Shown here one piece after another: positions 20,415-30,037 of a stretch of DNA of 64,000 bases. The position numbers and the translations under genes are program-made. Location: positions 62,001 through 126,000 of the forward strand of contig JAHDOI010000018.1 in assembly GCA_018434945.1 (NCBI GenBank), read 5' to 3'. The notes under the pieces are model-generated. The model saw only the letters and a list, made by a program, of their open reading frames with translations. It did no database searches and had not been told where the DNA came from. The stretch's first letter is position 1. The number at the start of each line of letters is the position of its first letter. This DNA is from Selenomonadales bacterium (GTDB lineage: Bacteria; Bacillota; Negativicutes; Sporomusales; UBA7701).

Positions 20415-21758
20415 TCAGCCGGCGGTTATCCTGGGACGGACGGCTTCCCGCAGGGAGACGGGCAGGGCGTTGAGGAGGATTTCGCCGATTTCCGTAAGGC
20501 GCTCAGGGGTTTTGGCTTCGAAACGGAATGTGAAGAGGGGCTCGGTGACGGAGGCACGGATCATGCCCCAGCCGTCGGCAAATTCGATGCGGACGCCGTC
20601 GATGAGGTTGGGCCGGTAGGGGGCGAGGGCGGCGGCGGCGGCGGCGATTACGGCTTCCTTGTCGGGGTGGGGGTAGGGGATGCGGATGTCGGGGGTGAGG
20701 AAGTAGTCGGGGACGCTGGCGGCGAGAGCGGAGAGGGGGCCGCTGGCGGCGGTGATTTCGGCGACTTTGAGGGCGGCGAAGGCGCCGTCGTCGTAGCCGA
20801 GTTCGCGGAAGAAGAAGTGGCCGCTGATTTCGCCGGCGAAGAGGGCGTTCTCCCGCCGGAAAGCCTGTTTGCTGAAGGTGTGGCCGGCGCGGGCCATGAC
20901 GGCGCGGCCGCCGGCTTTGGCGATCTCCTCGGCGACGACCATGGAGCATTTGGCGTCATAGACGACGGCGCCGGGGCCGTCGGCGAGGTAGTGCCTGGCG
21001 AGGAGGACGATGATGTCGTCGTTGTCTATCGGCCGGCCGGTTTCGTCGACGAAGCCGACGCGGTCGCCGTCGCCGTCGAAGGCGGCGCCGAGGGCGGCGC
21101 CGGTGCGGCGGACCTCGGCGCCGAGGGCGGCGAGGTTTTCGGCGAGGGCGGGGTTGGGAGGCCGGTGGGGGAAGCTGCCGTCAGGCCGGCAGTATAGCTC
21201 GATGACGTCGTAGCCAAGGCTGCGGAAGAGCGCGGGGGCGAAGCGTGACTGGGCGCCGCTGCCGGCGTCGAGGACGATTTTGAGGGCGCCGCGCGCGGCC
21301 CGGGCGGCGGTGAAGGCGAGGTAGTCGGCGGCGACGGGCAGCCTGGTGTGGCTGCCGCAGCCCGCGGTGCGGGCGCCGGCGGCGACGAGGCGGGCGATGT
21401 CGGCGATGTCGGCTTCGCTGACCGGCTCGGGGCCGAGGACGAGTTTGAAGCCGTTATAGGGGGCGGGGTTGTGGGAGGCGGTGACCATGACGCCGCCCGC
21501 GGCCGCCGTTGTCTGCAGGGCGTAGGAGAAGACGGGGGTCGATACGGTGCCGATGTCGAGGACATGGCAGCCTGATTCGACGAGAGCTTCGATGACGATG
21601 GCCTGGAGGGCCGGGGTGGAGAGGCGGATGTCGCCGCCGACGACGACTTTTTCGCCGGCGAGTTTGCGGCCGACGGCGAGGCCGATCTTGCGGGCGGCGA
21701 CGTCGGTGAGGTCGCGGCCGGCGATGCCGCGGATGTCGCAGGCGTGGAAGATGCTCAT
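20415..21758 (-). CDS. Phosphomannomutase/phosphoglucomutase
   Basis: Alpha-D-phosphohexomutase of 447 residues in four domains; it interconverts hexose 1- and 6-phosphates for envelope sugars. The phosphoserine loop is TASHNP with Ser95. The metal loop is FDGDGDRVGF, and the sugar loop GEISGHFFF (GExSGH) is intact. The C-terminal domain has the phosphate-binding RASVTEPLFTFRFEA. AAAGGAGACCACCC precedes the start. The sequence resembles bifunctional PMM/PGM (AlgC-like) enzymes, so mannose and glucose phosphates are both plausible substrates. Confidence 0.93.
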   Translation of the reverse strand: MSIFHACDIRGIAGRDLTDVAARKIGLAVGRKLAGEKVVVGGDIRLSTPALQAIVIEALVESGCHVLDIGTVSTPVFSYALQTTAAAGGVMVTASHNPAPYNGFKLVLGPEPVSEADIADIARLVAAGARTAGCGSHTRLPVAADYLAFTAARAARGALKIVLDAGSGAQSRFAPALFRSLGYDVIELYCRPDGSFPHRPPNPALAENLAALGAEVRRTGAALGAAFDGDGDRVGFVDETGRPIDNDDIIVLLARHYLADGPGAVVYDAKCSMVVAEEIAKAGGRAVMARAGHTFSKQAFRRENALFAGEISGHFFFRELGYDDGAFAALKVAEITAASGPLSALAASVPDYFLTPDIRIPYPHPDKEAVIAAAAAALAPYRPNLIDGVRIEFADGWGMIRASVTEPLFTFRFEAKTPERLTEIGEILLNALPVSLREAVRPRITAG

Positions 21759-21803: not shown

Positions 21804-23147
21804 TCATTGCCCGGGTTTTTTATCAACCGCGGAAGTTGCGGGGTTTACGGGCGGGGCCGCCTGTGTCTTTACTTCCACGCGACGTTTCAAGCGGTCTTCC
21901 AGGATATTTTGAATGGTTTTGAGAAACTTGTCGTCGATAACGGTAGGACCGGACAGCTTTACGGTTACAATGTAGGTGCCCGTGCTGTTGCGGTATTCCA
22001 ACGAAAAATCATCAAGCCTCGTGCCAGGCAATAAGGCTGTTTTTTCGCGAATGACAGTTTCTATCACGTCTTCGGGCGTGGAGGCTTTGATGATTTCCAC
22101 GACTTCCTTTTCCGTCACCTTGGGCAGCAGATCGCGGAATGTATCGATGTTGGCTTTGTTGTTCACTTTTTGCACCAACACGACATCGGCGTTGACGCTG
22201 ACGGGTTTACCGAGGCGCAGTTCCAGTAAGTTCTCCATTTGTCTGATGTTTTCGGGAACGATGATTTTTGTGGTGCGAAAAGCCGCCCCTACCTGAATTT
22301 GGTTGTCCGTATCCTTATAGTCCACCGACATCAGCGTGGACTGCGGGGCAATGACGTCGAGAGATTCCGCCAGCGAACTCTTGATGATCCTTTCCGTGCT
22401 GGCCTGGGTGTAGGTCTTATACATGATAAACGCCAACGGTACGGAAATCAGGACAAGCAGCACCACTGGATAGATCATCCGGTACTGCGGTTTCACACAA
22501 GTGTTATCGTCGTTTTCGCCGCATGAATCTTTCGAAAAACCGGCCAACTGGAATAGGGCGATGGCGGCGACGTTGATGGCTACCATGTTGGCCAGAAAGA
22601 GCAGCAAAGCCCCCGAGACCACGCCAAATTCCTGTTTGGCGAGGCCGATTCCCACGACGCACAGAGGCGGCATCAATGCCGTGGAGATCGCGACTCCCGG
22701 CAGTGTCGCCCCCTGAGGCTTCATGCAGATGGCGTATGTACCGGCAGCCCCCGATGCCAGGGCGATAACCAGATCCAAGATGGTGGGAGAAGTTCTCGCC
22801 AATACTTCAGGGGTCAGTTCCGCGCTTGGCAGGACCAATGTCAACAAGGTCGCCAAAACAACCGCGGTGACCGAGCCCAACGCTTCCGTTTTGGCGGACA
22901 GCTTGAGCAGTTCGTTGCTGTTGGTCGCGATAGCCATCGCGCCGCCAAGTATCGGACCCATCAGCGGCGCGATCAGCATCGCCCCGATAACGACCGCGGT
23001 GCTGTTGGAGAGCAGCCCGTAGGTGGCTACGGTGCAAGATAGCACCACCATCATGAAGTAGTAATGATCCGGCTTAGCATCACCGAAAACCCCGGCAAAA
23101 ATCCGTTTCTGCTCGTTTTCGTCCGGCCACTGTATCATCGTCGGCAC
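21804..23147 (-). CDS. DUF389 (TIGR00341-like) membrane protein
   Basis: Membrane protein of 447 residues. A conserved DUF389 core of about five to seven membrane segments carries NSTAVVIGAMLIAPLMGPILG and LPGVAISTALMPPLCVVGIGLA. A soluble C-terminal domain (about 245-447) follows, with repeated beta-alpha units and a Pro-rich tail. The function of the family is unknown; some members have been linked to polar metabolite transport. It stands alone and is divergent from the peroxiredoxin gene. Confidence 0.88.
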   Translation of the reverse strand: MPTMIQWPDENEQKRIFAGVFGDAKPDHYYFMMVVLSCTVATYGLLSNSTAVVIGAMLIAPLMGPILGGAMAIATNSNELLKLSAKTEALGSVTAVVLATLLTLVLPSAELTPEVLARTSPTILDLVIALASGAAGTYAICMKPQGATLPGVAISTALMPPLCVVGIGLAKQEFGVVSGALLLFLANMVAINVAAIALFQLAGFSKDSCGENDDNTCVKPQYRMIYPVVLLVLISVPLAFIMYKTYTQASTERIIKSSLAESLDVIAPQSTLMSVDYKDTDNQIQVGAAFRTTKIIVPENIRQMENLLELRLGKPVSVNADVVLVQKVNNKANIDTFRDLLPKVTEKEVVEIIKASTPEDVIETVIREKTALLPGTRLDDFSLEYRNSTGTYIVTVKLSGPTVIDDKFLKTIQNILEDRLKRRVEVKTQAAPPVNPATSAVDKKPGQ

Positions 23148-23323: not shown

Positions 23324-23350
23324 ATATAAATTAACGGAGGAGGCGCTTTT

Positions 23351-23947
23351 ATGGAGGAATGCAAGGCTGCGCCGCCGGCCCGCCAGTGCTTCCGCCTGGA
23401 GGAGCGGGCGCCCGGGTTCCGCGCGCCGGCGTACTGGCGGGGCCGGGAGGTGGAGGTAAGTCTGGGCGATTTTTATGGCAAGTGGCTGCTGATATTTTTT
23501 TATTCGAGCGATTTTACGTTCGTCTGACCGACCGAATTGGCGGCAGTTGCCGACATTTTCCCCTGCCTGCGTAAGCTCGGCGCAACGGCGGTCGCGATCA
23601 GCACGGACAGCGTTTATGCCCACAAGGTTTTCCACGAAACTTCCCCCCATGCTAGCCAGGTTCAGTACCCCCTGCTGTCCGACCGGTCGGGGGCGATCGC
23701 CCGCGCTTACGGGGTGTGGGGCGCGGAGACGGGGGCGGCTTTCCGGGCGACGTTCATCGTCGATCCCGCGGGGCGGATCCGCTATTATTCGGTGTACCCG
23801 CGGGAGGTGGGCCGCAACGTGCGGGAGATCGTGCGCACGCTGGCGGGCATCCAGTACGGCGAGGCGACCGGCGAGGGCGTGCCGGCGGGCTGGCAGCCGG
23901 GCATGCCGGGGATCAGCCGCGATTTCGATCTGGTGGGTACGGTATAG
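23351..23947 (+). CDS. Peroxiredoxin with predicted selenocysteine at the active site
   Basis: AhpC/TSA-type peroxiredoxin of 198 residues that reduces peroxides. The frame opens at ATG 23351 (AGGAGG seven bases upstream) and runs to 23947, with one in-frame UGA at codon 59 (23525-23527). Around it the protein reads FYSSDFTFV-UGA-PTELAAVAD, exactly where other family members have DFTFVCPTEL. The UGA thus replaces the peroxidatic Cys codon, which is diagnostic of a selenocysteine peroxiredoxin. A hairpin follows at the distance expected for a bacterial SECIS. At the C-terminus the usual resolving-Cys block VCPAxW is GVPAGW (Val177), so it is probably a 1-Sec type; Cys72 could serve instead. 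Confidence 0.9.
23534..23559 (+). promoter_or_regulatory. Candidate bacterial SECIS element
   Basis: CGGC (23541-23544) and GCCG (23549-23552) pair around loop AGTT, and an imperfect lower stem extends to about 23534 and 23559. The loop begins 17 bases after the UGA and has a G in its second position followed by U. This agrees with known requirements for SelB-dependent recoding within the coding sequence. Confidence 0.65.
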
Positions 23948-23951
23948 GAAA

Positions 23952-23978
23952 AACGCCGCTAACGGTTAGCGGCGTTTC
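23952..23978 (+). terminator. Terminator of the peroxiredoxin gene
   Basis: AACGCCGCTAA (23952-23962) pairs perfectly with TTAGCGGCGTT (23966-23976) around CGG, ending in a short T-rich stretch. Confidence 0.75.
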
Positions 23979-24176: not shown

Positions 24177-25580
24177 TCAGATAATCAGCGGCTTTGCATT
24201 AGCAAGATTGACGGCGTGGACGGCGCAGGTGAAACATGGGTCAAACGAGCGTACAACCCTCCCCACCTCGACCAAACTGTTTTCGTCGGCGACGGGGGTG
24301 CCGATGAGGGCTTCTTCGACCGCGCCGCGTTTGCCGCTGCCGTCGCGGGGCGAGAATTTCCAGGCGGTGGGGGTGATTATCTGGTGGTGGCTGACTTTGC
24401 CGCCTTCGAATTTGAGCCAGTGGCCGAGGGCGCCGCGCATGACGTCGGTGAGGCCGACGCCTTCGCCGCGGGGAGGGAGGGTGTACGGCTGCAGGGTGGG
24501 CTGGCCGGGGACGAGCCGGGCGAGCCAGTTTTCGGCGAGCAGGCATAATTTGCGCGTTTCCTGGGCGCGGGCGATGATGCGGTCGGCGACGCCGGTGCCT
24601 TTGCCGCGGTATTCGCCGCTGAGGACCGCCCGCGGCAGGGGGCCGCTCTCGAACGCCAGCCCTTTGTAGCGGGGGGCTTTTGTCCAGGAGTAGGCGCCGG
24701 GCTTGTCGGGGTCGGGGACGGTGCTTTCGGTGTCGGGCCGGCCGCCCGTCCCTTCGCGGTACCAGCCGTAGCGTACGTCTTCGCTGATCTGGGCGGGGTC
24801 GAGGTCTTCGGTTAAGCCGCCTGCGAAGCGTACGCCGGCTTTGAGGACCCGCTGGCCGTTCGGCGGTTCGGGGAACATGCCGAAGGAGATGAAGTTGTCG
24901 ACGCTTTTGCCGATGATGTGGTAGTCGGGGTAATAGACGGCGATGGTCTGGGCGTCGGGGAGGTAGACGCCTTCGACGAAGTAGCGGATTCTCCTGAGGA
25001 GGGCGGCGGCGGCCTTGACGTTGTCGGCGTTAAGGTGCTGGGTGACGCCGGTGACCATGATGGTCTGCTGGTGGGGGGCTTTGGCGCCGAACATGGCCAG
25101 GAGCTCGTGAGCGGCCGCCGACATACGGATGGCGGTGGGAAAATGTTCGACGAAGGCGGCATTTGTTTTGGCAGGCAGACGGAGGTCCGGTTTGGGAGGG
25201 CGGGGCGTCCAGGGGGGCGTATCGGGGCCGGAGACGAAGTCCGGCAGGGTGAGGAGGTAGAAGTGGCGGATATGGTTCTGGATGGTGTCGGCGGCGAGGA
25301 TTATGTTGATGAGGTGCTGGCCGTTGACGGTGGGGGCGAGGCCGGTGGCCTGCTGGAGAGCGAGGGCGTCGGCGACGGCGTGGGCGGTGGAGCAGATGCC
25401 GCAGATGCGCTGGGTGAAGAGGATGGTGTCGCGGACGTCGCGGCCGAGCATCATCTGCTCCCAGCCGCGGTAGAGGTGGCTGCTCACCCAGGCGTCGGTC
25501 ACCCGGCCGCCGGCGATTTCGACATCGATCCTGATGGGTTCGTGGATGCGGGTCATGGGAAAGATGGTTTTTCTGGCCAT
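24177..25580 (-). CDS. [NiFe] hydrogenase large subunit
   Basis: Catalytic subunit of 467 residues binding the Ni-Fe centre; oxidises or produces H2. The N-terminal ligand motif is RICGICSTAH (Cys60, Cys63). The C-terminal motif is DPCFTCAVH (Cys449, Cys452, His455), followed by a 12-residue tail to be removed by a maturation protease after His455. ATG 25580 overlaps the small-subunit stop (TAATG). It travels through the Tat pathway with its partner. No maturation genes (hyp or protease) lie nearby. The sequence resembles group 1 exported uptake enzymes; that grouping is inferred. Confidence 0.95.
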   Translation of the reverse strand: MARKTIFPMTRIHEPIRIDVEIAGGRVTDAWVSSHLYRGWEQMMLGRDVRDTILFTQRICGICSTAHAVADALALQQATGLAPTVNGQHLINIILAADTIQNHIRHFYLLTLPDFVSGPDTPPWTPRPPKPDLRLPAKTNAAFVEHFPTAIRMSAAAHELLAMFGAKAPHQQTIMVTGVTQHLNADNVKAAAALLRRIRYFVEGVYLPDAQTIAVYYPDYHIIGKSVDNFISFGMFPEPPNGQRVLKAGVRFAGGLTEDLDPAQISEDVRYGWYREGTGGRPDTESTVPDPDKPGAYSWTKAPRYKGLAFESGPLPRAVLSGEYRGKGTGVADRIIARAQETRKLCLLAENWLARLVPGQPTLQPYTLPPRGEGVGLTDVMRGALGHWLKFEGGKVSHHQIITPTAWKFSPRDGSGKRGAVEEALIGTPVADENSLVEVGRVVRSFDPCFTCAVHAVNLANAKPLII

Positions 25581-26821
25581 TACTTGTCCTTTCCGGTCTT
25601 GTCTTCGGTGCGCCAGAAGCTTATTACGCGCCGCAGCCACGATTTTTTCCGGCGGCGCGGCGCGGCGGCCTCGAGTTTTTTGGCTTCGCTCATGAGGGCG
25701 TTCTGCTGACGGATGAGGTCGTCGAGTTCCTGTTTTACCTGGGCAAGGTTTTCCGGCGGGGTCGGGTCGCTGGGTTTTGTGCCGTCGAGGTAGTGTTTGT
25801 GGATGCGACGGGCGAAGATGCCGGCGGCGAGGTGGGTGGCGACCGCACCCACGCCCAGGGCGGCGAAGGCGGCGCCGATTTTTTTGACGCTGACGGCGAC
25901 GGCCCGGGTCTTGACATCGGGCAGGTGGTTATAAAAGGGCATCATGCCGTCGGGGAAGTGGGGACTGGCACAGCCGATGCAAGGCGCGCCGGCCCTGACC
26001 GGCCAGTTGACGGCGCCGTTCCACTGACGGTAGGGGCAGTCAGAGTGGGTGACCGGGCCTTTGCAGCCGACCTTGTAAAGGCAGCCGTCGTCGCCGGGGA
26101 AGGCGGCGAAGATGCCGTCTTCGAACTGTTGGCGGCGCTGGCACTGGTCGTGGATGGTGCGGCTGAAGAAGAGCTTCGGGCGGTTGTAGGCGTCCAGCTC
26201 GGGCAGACCGTAGAGCAGCAGGTGGCTGAAGGTGCCTGTCATCCAGTCGGGGTGGCTGGGACAGCCGGGGATGTTGACGACGACCCGGTCGGTGACGACG
26301 TCCCAGACGCCTTTGCCGCCGCCGGGGTTGGGGTGGGCGGCGCCGGGACCGCCGAAGGCGGCGCAGTCGCCGACGGCGACGATGTAGCGCGCCTTGGGGG
26401 CGAATTCTTTGAGGGCGGCAAGGCCGGTGACCATTTCGCCGTTGCGGGAAAAGACATGGTTGTAACGCCCGTCGGCGGCTGTCATGACCGACCCTTCGAC
26501 AATCAGCCAGAATTTGCCGGCTTCTTTTTCGACGGTGTCGAGCAGCACCCGCACGGCCGCGTCGCCGTGGGCGGTGTTGTATACCCAGTGGTAGCGCAGG
26601 TCGAGGAATTCGGTGAGCAGTTGATAGAGGTTGGGGTTGAGGCTGTTATCGAGGGATACGCTTTCCCCGGTGCAGGAGCCGAGCTCGAGCCAGACGACGG
26701 GCGGGCGGGGCAGCGGGCTTTGGGCATACGCCTGCCTAATGGCCGGGACGAGGAGGTCGGCAAGGGTGGTGGCGGCTGTCGCCGCAAGGCATATTTTGAT
26801 GAATTCCCGCCGCGAAAGCAT
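25580..26821 (-). CDS. [NiFe] hydrogenase small subunit, Tat-exported
   Basis: Electron-transfer subunit of 413 residues. A Tat signal (SRREFIK, residues 3-9) is followed by the proximal-cluster block ELGSCTGES and further Cys at VAVGDCAAFGG and IPGCPSHP. The medial and distal cluster block runs from HDQCQRRQQFEDG to GAPCIGCASPHFPDG. A hydrophobic anchor (about 300-330) puts the enzyme on the outer face of the inner membrane. The tail after it (about 345-413) is unusually long, charged and coiled-coil-like, a feature I do not recognise from standard small subunits. Confidence 0.94.
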   Translation of the reverse strand: MLSRREFIKICLAATAATTLADLLVPAIRQAYAQSPLPRPPVVWLELGSCTGESVSLDNSLNPNLYQLLTEFLDLRYHWVYNTAHGDAAVRVLLDTVEKEAGKFWLIVEGSVMTAADGRYNHVFSRNGEMVTGLAALKEFAPKARYIVAVGDCAAFGGPGAAHPNPGGGKGVWDVVTDRVVVNIPGCPSHPDWMTGTFSHLLLYGLPELDAYNRPKLFFSRTIHDQCQRRQQFEDGIFAAFPGDDGCLYKVGCKGPVTHSDCPYRQWNGAVNWPVRAGAPCIGCASPHFPDGMMPFYNHLPDVKTRAVAVSVKKIGAAFAALGVGAVATHLAAGIFARRIHKHYLDGTKPSDPTPPENLAQVKQELDDLIRQQNALMSEAKKLEAAAPRRRKKSWLRRVISFWRTEDKTGKDK

Positions 26822-29602: not shown

Positions 29603-30037
29603 TTAGTTGGCCGGCTTGCCCTGGCAGGTCGGGCAGTAGCCGTAAAAGTAGAATTGCTGGCCGGCAAGGCGGTAAGCGGTCTTGTCGGCGACCTGGCCGA
29701 TGAATCCCGCGATGTCTATTTCGTGGATGTCGTCGACCCTGCCGCACTGGAGGCAGCGGATGTGGGGATGCATGCTGATGTCCGCGTCGTAGCGGAAGCT
29801 GTCTTCCCCGGCGTTGAGCACCTGGATGAGGCCTATTTCTTTGAGGATTTCCACCGTTTTGTAGACGGTCGCCAAACTCATTGTGGGATAGTAAGGCTGT
29901 AACTGCTGAAAGATCATCTCGGCGCTGGGGTGGGCTTTGCTGTTGGCCAGAACTTTATAGATGGCCAAACGCTGTGGGGTGACTTTGAAGCCTTTCTCCC
30001 GCAGCAGGGCGGTTACCCGGTTTTCCACCGAAAACAC
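29603..30037 (-). CDS. perR: PerR-type peroxide-sensing Fur-family repressor
   Basis: Fur-family regulator of 144 residues. The winged helix (about 15-85) contains VTPQRLAIYKVL and LATVYKTVEIL. Two CxxC pairs (Cys95/98 and Cys135/138) make the structural zinc site. The regulatory-metal ligands correspond to PerR: His36, Asp84, His90, His92 and Asp103. Asp at the last position favours peroxide sensing by histidine oxidation over plain iron sensing. It starts at GTG 30037. A palindromic operator lies just upstream, which suggests autoregulation. Confidence 0.88.
   Translation of the reverse strand: MFSVENRVTALLREKGFKVTPQRLAIYKVLANSKAHPSAEMIFQQLQPYYPTMSLATVYKTVEILKEIGLIQVLNAGEDSFRYDADISMHPHIRCLQCGRVDDIHEIDIAGFIGQVADKTAYRLAGQQFYFYGYCPTCQGKPAN

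Follow-up and report, generated by a model that had tools for sequence, protein, structure and literature searches.

The window analysed here is a 64,000-nucleotide stretch of a Selenomonadales genome. On its forward strand it carries a single reading frame at 23351-23947 that encodes 198 residues when its one in-frame TGA is read as selenocysteine (Sec, U), and that ends at a TAG stop codon (23945-23947). The TGA is codon 59 (23525-23527) and, as the initial annotation had stated, it is the sole break in the frame. It occupies the peroxidatic Cys position of AhpC-type peroxiredoxins. The sequence around it, FFYSSDFTFV-U-PTELAAVAD, reads as had been claimed: the family motif DFTFV-x-PTEL with UGA replacing the catalytic Cys. 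The encoded protein has MEECKAAPPARQCFRLEERAPGF at its N-terminus and GEGVPAGWQPGMPGISRDFDLVGTV at its C-terminus. Direct reading revealed a Shine-Dalgarno sequence, GGAGGAGG, at 23336-23343 (+), 7 nt upstream of the ATG, and a site of the AGGAGG type is equally placed in most orthologues. Immediately past the stop codon there is an inverted repeat, AAACGCCGCTAA-CGG-TTAGCGGCGTTT (23951-23977, +), a putative terminator-like element. Our assignment of the coding sequence draws on its translation, its domain match, its orthologues and a tree. The PF00578 (AhpC-TSA) match spans the UGA (residues 18-145, E 3.5e-32) and scores 111.4 bits against a gathering score of 26, which places the protein in the AhpC/TSA superfamily. 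Solved AhpC and 2-Cys peroxiredoxins align to residues 16-197 and place their peroxidatic Cys opposite residue 59.

Mechanical gene calling breaks this gene at the UGA. The mechanical list of open reading frames contains just a 136-residue downstream fragment starting at TTG 23537, in line with the prediction that automatic annotation would fragment the gene, and standard annotation would call it a pseudogene in which the TGA is a genuine nonsense mutation. Against this, a TGA was found at the homologous codon in all 25 of the Sec-type clade members recovered. These come from several Bacillota families: besides members of the source organism's own genus and of related genera in its order, they include Sporomusa malonica, Sporomusa silvacetica, Anaerosolibacter, Acididesulfobacillus and further Bacillota. 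Such recurrence at one codon excludes decay. Selection acts on both sides of the UGA, with dN/dS values of 0.16-0.50 upstream and 0.09-0.18 downstream, so that purifying selection on the downstream segment is at least equal to that on the upstream segment. Together with the Sec machinery of the genome described below, these observations leave the pseudogene interpretation with next to no weight. The initial annotation had called both segments fully conserved. That wording is too strong: members of the genus are 84-88% identical at the protein level, related genera about 68-77% and Cys-containing AhpC about 40%. A sequencing or assembly error at a true TGC or TGT codon would require only a single base change; it is nevertheless excluded by the presence of TGA at the same codon in independent genomes, including those of the isolates S. 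malonica DSM 5090 and S. silvacetica DSM 10669, and we consider it hardly conceivable. In an even sample of the phylum comprising 398 genomes, nine, the source genome among them, have a clade member at a membership threshold of E <= 1e-75, each with one TGA.

The 3.8 Mb source genome (the window lies on its contig C82) contains selA, selB, selD and tRNA-Sec, supporting the suggestion that the organism uses Sec decoding. The selA gene (551 bits, cut-off 268) is adjacent to selB (383 bits, cut-off 242) on contig C52, which also carries selD (393 bits, cut-off 125). The tRNA-Sec, with a TCA anticodon and a score of 72.6 bits, is on contig C73 and was called by both Rfam and ARAGORN. A second tRNA-Sec candidate above the cut-off (contig C2, 51 bits) is a tRNA-Ser and was rejected. 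The selD gene is itself a predicted selenoprotein gene, with a TGA at codon 13 in the context KSGG-U-AAKIG (L014:1495 onward, contig C52). A frame that is open when TGA is read as a residue looks identical under any code in which UGA has been reassigned genome-wide, or is suppressed to Trp or Cys. However, TGA is the terminator of 6 of the 15 window genes checked, indicating that the code has not been reassigned. The presence of selA, selB, selD and a tRNA-Sec with a UCA anticodon, and the covariation of the hairpin described next, likewise argue against reassignment or suppression, which we regard as very improbable.

Downstream of the UGA we identified a SECIS-like apical hairpin, CGGC-AGTT-GCCG (23541-23552, +), with an AGUU loop at 23545-23548 and 17 nt separating the UGA and the loop. 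The stem has four pairs, or six counting one mismatch; the possible two extra pairs (23538-23539 with 23554-23555, +) lie beneath a G.A mismatch. The hairpin of L033/L034 contains a G.A mismatch. The window hairpin fits the published bacterial SECIS (bSECIS) model (PMC13188914) in loop, pairs and spacing. Its folding energy is -8.0 kcal/mol over 42 nt and -6.9 kcal/mol over 28 nt, against a bSECIS criterion of at most -7.5, and the outcome therefore varies with the stretch that is folded. Single-sequence folds after the UGA in the window gene were not significant (z about +0.4), and on synonymous recoding of the window gene alone 12% of sequences reached the energy of the hairpin (p about 0.12). 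As the window hairpin by itself is not significant, the case for a SECIS element rests on covariation across the family and on synonymous conservation.

For covariation we used 45 distinct sequences, 15 from the window clade and 30 from PrxU, all of which align without gaps downstream of the UGA in a single register. PrxU is an accepted Sec protein, and it shares the hairpin register and loop with the window clade. Within the register, which covers positions +14 to +25 after the UGA, the +17/+22 and +14/+25 pairs are formed in 45/45 sequences and the +16/+23 pair in 44/45. The third pair, +15/+24, is A-U in 24 sequences, G-C in 18 and U-A in one, and is unpaired in two, giving a pair in 43/45. 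The loop is AGUU in 37 of the 45 sequences and GGUC, CGUG or GGUU in the remainder. This register yields 768 sequence pairs that are doubly changed, and slid registers yield 0-323. Synonymous conservation, counted as codon identity among unchanged residues, has its gene-wide peak at codons +5 to +10 after the UGA; the best five-codon windows start 6, 7 and 5 codons past it and are 0.59-0.61 identical, compared with a mean of 0.42.

Selenocysteine-containing peroxiredoxins are already known, as the initial annotation had noted. PrxU is one of them, from Eubacterium acidaminophilum and further clostridia (Sohling et al. 2001, as cited in PMC9312934 and PMC8533274), and 78 organisms with peroxiredoxin selenoproteins have been reported (PMC5029168). 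The basic finding is thus of a known kind. Our literature searches on PrxU and E. acidaminophilum, and on Sec peroxiredoxins of Sporomusa, returned no usable account. The closest named family is the PrxU model NF040737, on which the window protein scores 172.3 bits and further members of its clade 161-176 bits, short of the cut-off of 270; the curated PrxU and AhpC models both stay under their cut-offs on the window clade. A tree of 63 sequences resolved three groups, namely the window clade (support 98/97), PrxU (99/94) and Cys-AhpC (99/99). Because the program that built the tree flagged the meeting of long branches, we make no claim on the branching order of these groups. Judged by sequence, the window protein is a member of a second Sec-AhpC clade apart from PrxU, which occurs in Sporomusaceae and other Bacillota. 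This second clade, missed by the PrxU model and bearing an altered active-site motif, is what is new here.

The alteration lies in the active-site motif at codons 52-59 (23504-23527, +), which reads S-S-D-F-T-F-V-U. The Pro and Thr of the peroxiredoxin PxxxT/SxxC motif have been described as strictly conserved (PMC5719442). In the window protein Ser52 stands where the family has its proline (-7), and Thr56 is retained. Across the 25 Sec sequences of the window clade the proline position holds Ser (14), Ala (8) or Gly (3) and never Pro, whereas the proline is present in 31/31 PrxU-clade and 16/16 Cys sequences. The Thr position is Thr in 24 of the 25 and Ser in one, and the active-site Arg132 is invariant in the 13 aligned clade members. 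Loss of the proline could alter activity. A C-terminal resolving Cys was found in none of the Sec sequences of either clade; it is present in the Cys-AhpCs compared (VCP, xxVCPAxW), where the window protein has GEGVPAGW. The lack of this residue was considered as a hallmark of the window clade and dropped, since PrxU also lacks it. Sec59 is the sole Cys/Sec position common to every member of the alignment. Cys13, near the N-terminus, is conserved among the Sporomusaceae members. Cys72 was dropped as a candidate resolver, being found in just 8 of 17 sequences.

These features set the window protein beside several known systems. Like PrxU, it is AhpC-type, has a peroxidatic Sec and no C-terminal resolving Cys, and carries a SECIS-like hairpin in the same register with an AGUU loop; it differs in the lost proline, and in most PrxU sequences the N-terminal extension is longer and includes a GCxRP-type Cys. 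With typical 2-Cys AhpC (TIGR03137) it shares the fold family, the DFTFV-x-PTEL motif and the level of identity given above, but AhpC has Cys in place of Sec and retains the motif proline. The COG1225 (Bcp/PrxQ) family includes a Sec peroxiredoxin with a TxxU motif (PMC9312934); the window protein has the same TxxU active site and a peroxidatic Sec, although Bcp/PrxQ is another class of peroxiredoxin. The 1-Cys peroxiredoxins of the Prx6 type, such as AnPrx6 (PMC5719442), also lack a resolving Cys, for which an external reductant is expected. Prx6 retains the Pro and Thr of PxxxTxxC, however, and by sequence the window protein falls outside that subfamily.

We hold with high confidence that the gene encodes an AhpC-type peroxiredoxin in which UGA59 specifies Sec, and which would follow a 1-Sec peroxidase cycle with an external thiol. 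SelB and the Sec-tRNA(UCA), acting with the hairpin 17 nt downstream, would decode codon 59 as selenocysteine. The Sec59 selenolate would then attack and reduce the peroxide, becoming a selenenic acid. With no C-terminal resolving Cys, the selenenic acid would most likely be reduced by an external thiol, thioredoxin-like or of low molecular weight, or in Sporomusaceae members possibly by Cys13 as an alternative internal resolver. Insertion of Sec in vivo, peroxidase activity and the nature of the reductant are what we infer from the sequences. A different possibility is that Sec is inserted but that the protein is chiefly a thiol:disulfide oxidoreductase, a redox sensor or a chaperone. This would accord with the disappearance of an otherwise strictly conserved proline from 25/25 members and with the missing resolving Cys. 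The retention of the motif Thr and of Arg132 points the other way, as does PrxU, which likewise has no resolving Cys and yet is named a peroxiredoxin by NCBI. We therefore consider a principal role other than peroxidase unlikely, if clearly less so than the alternatives to Sec decoding weighed above.

A Cys form was recovered within the window clade. This protein (L048, 55% identical) combines a peroxidatic Cys with Pro at -7 and lacks a resolving Cys; its placement is weak (96/34) and its branch is long. Its sequence would fit either a Sec-to-Cys reversion or an ancestral form. In its genome, G046 (99% complete), selA and selB were not found, and the best tRNA-Sec match, at 51 bits, scores no better than the tRNA-Ser in the window genome and is not convincing. 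The occurrence of a Cys form in such a genome speaks for Sec decoding in the clade. Genomes G002 and G003 count against it at face value but are probably incomplete assemblies. G002 (96% complete), which carries the Sec gene, yielded no selA or selB but two tRNA-Sec matches of 75.5 and 71.9 bits, and searches of G003 (87% complete) for selA, selB and tRNA-Sec gave nothing convincing. The sequences constitute a natural series: Sec without the motif proline, PrxU with both Sec and the proline, and a Cys form with the proline in a genome where no Sec machinery was found. This series makes it testable whether Sec relaxes the constraints on the peroxiredoxin active site, that is, what Sec buys the enzyme.

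The Sec gene is flanked on the minus strand by a phosphohexomutase gene (20415-21758) and a DUF389-type gene (21804-23147) upstream and by the large and small subunits of a NiFe-hydrogenase (24177-26821) downstream. A gene for a PerR-type peroxide regulator (29603-30037, -; NF052545, over its cut-off) lies about 6 kb downstream. In several genomes the orthologue of the Sec gene has the mutase and hydrogenase genes as its neighbours; a DUF389 gene was found beside none of these orthologues. The nearest models to the hydrogenase are those of NiFeSe hydrogenases, under whose cut-offs it stays. We rejected it as a Sec enzyme, as its C-terminal DPxxxC motif has Cys in 9/9 sequences (DPCFTC in the window and in eight orthologues). 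From this context, the co-occurrence of these genes suggests protection against oxygen or peroxide in an H2-metabolising anaerobe. More tentatively, the exchange of Cys for Sec may have made the motif proline and the resolving Cys dispensable, yielding a 1-Sec cycle that resembles that of GPx, draws on a reductant of its own and possibly protects the neighbouring NiFe-hydrogenase from oxygen; we find this scenario possible but doubtful.

The source genome also encodes a PrxQ/Bcp-like protein with a TGA at the peroxidatic position, KDNTAG-U-TDEAREF (L003, G000:C49:128179-128556, -), which is likely a further selenoprotein. A genome of the same genus carries a second Sec paralogue, 56% identical, with the sequence FYSSDFSFV-U-PTEL (L103, G001:C1:381300-382500).
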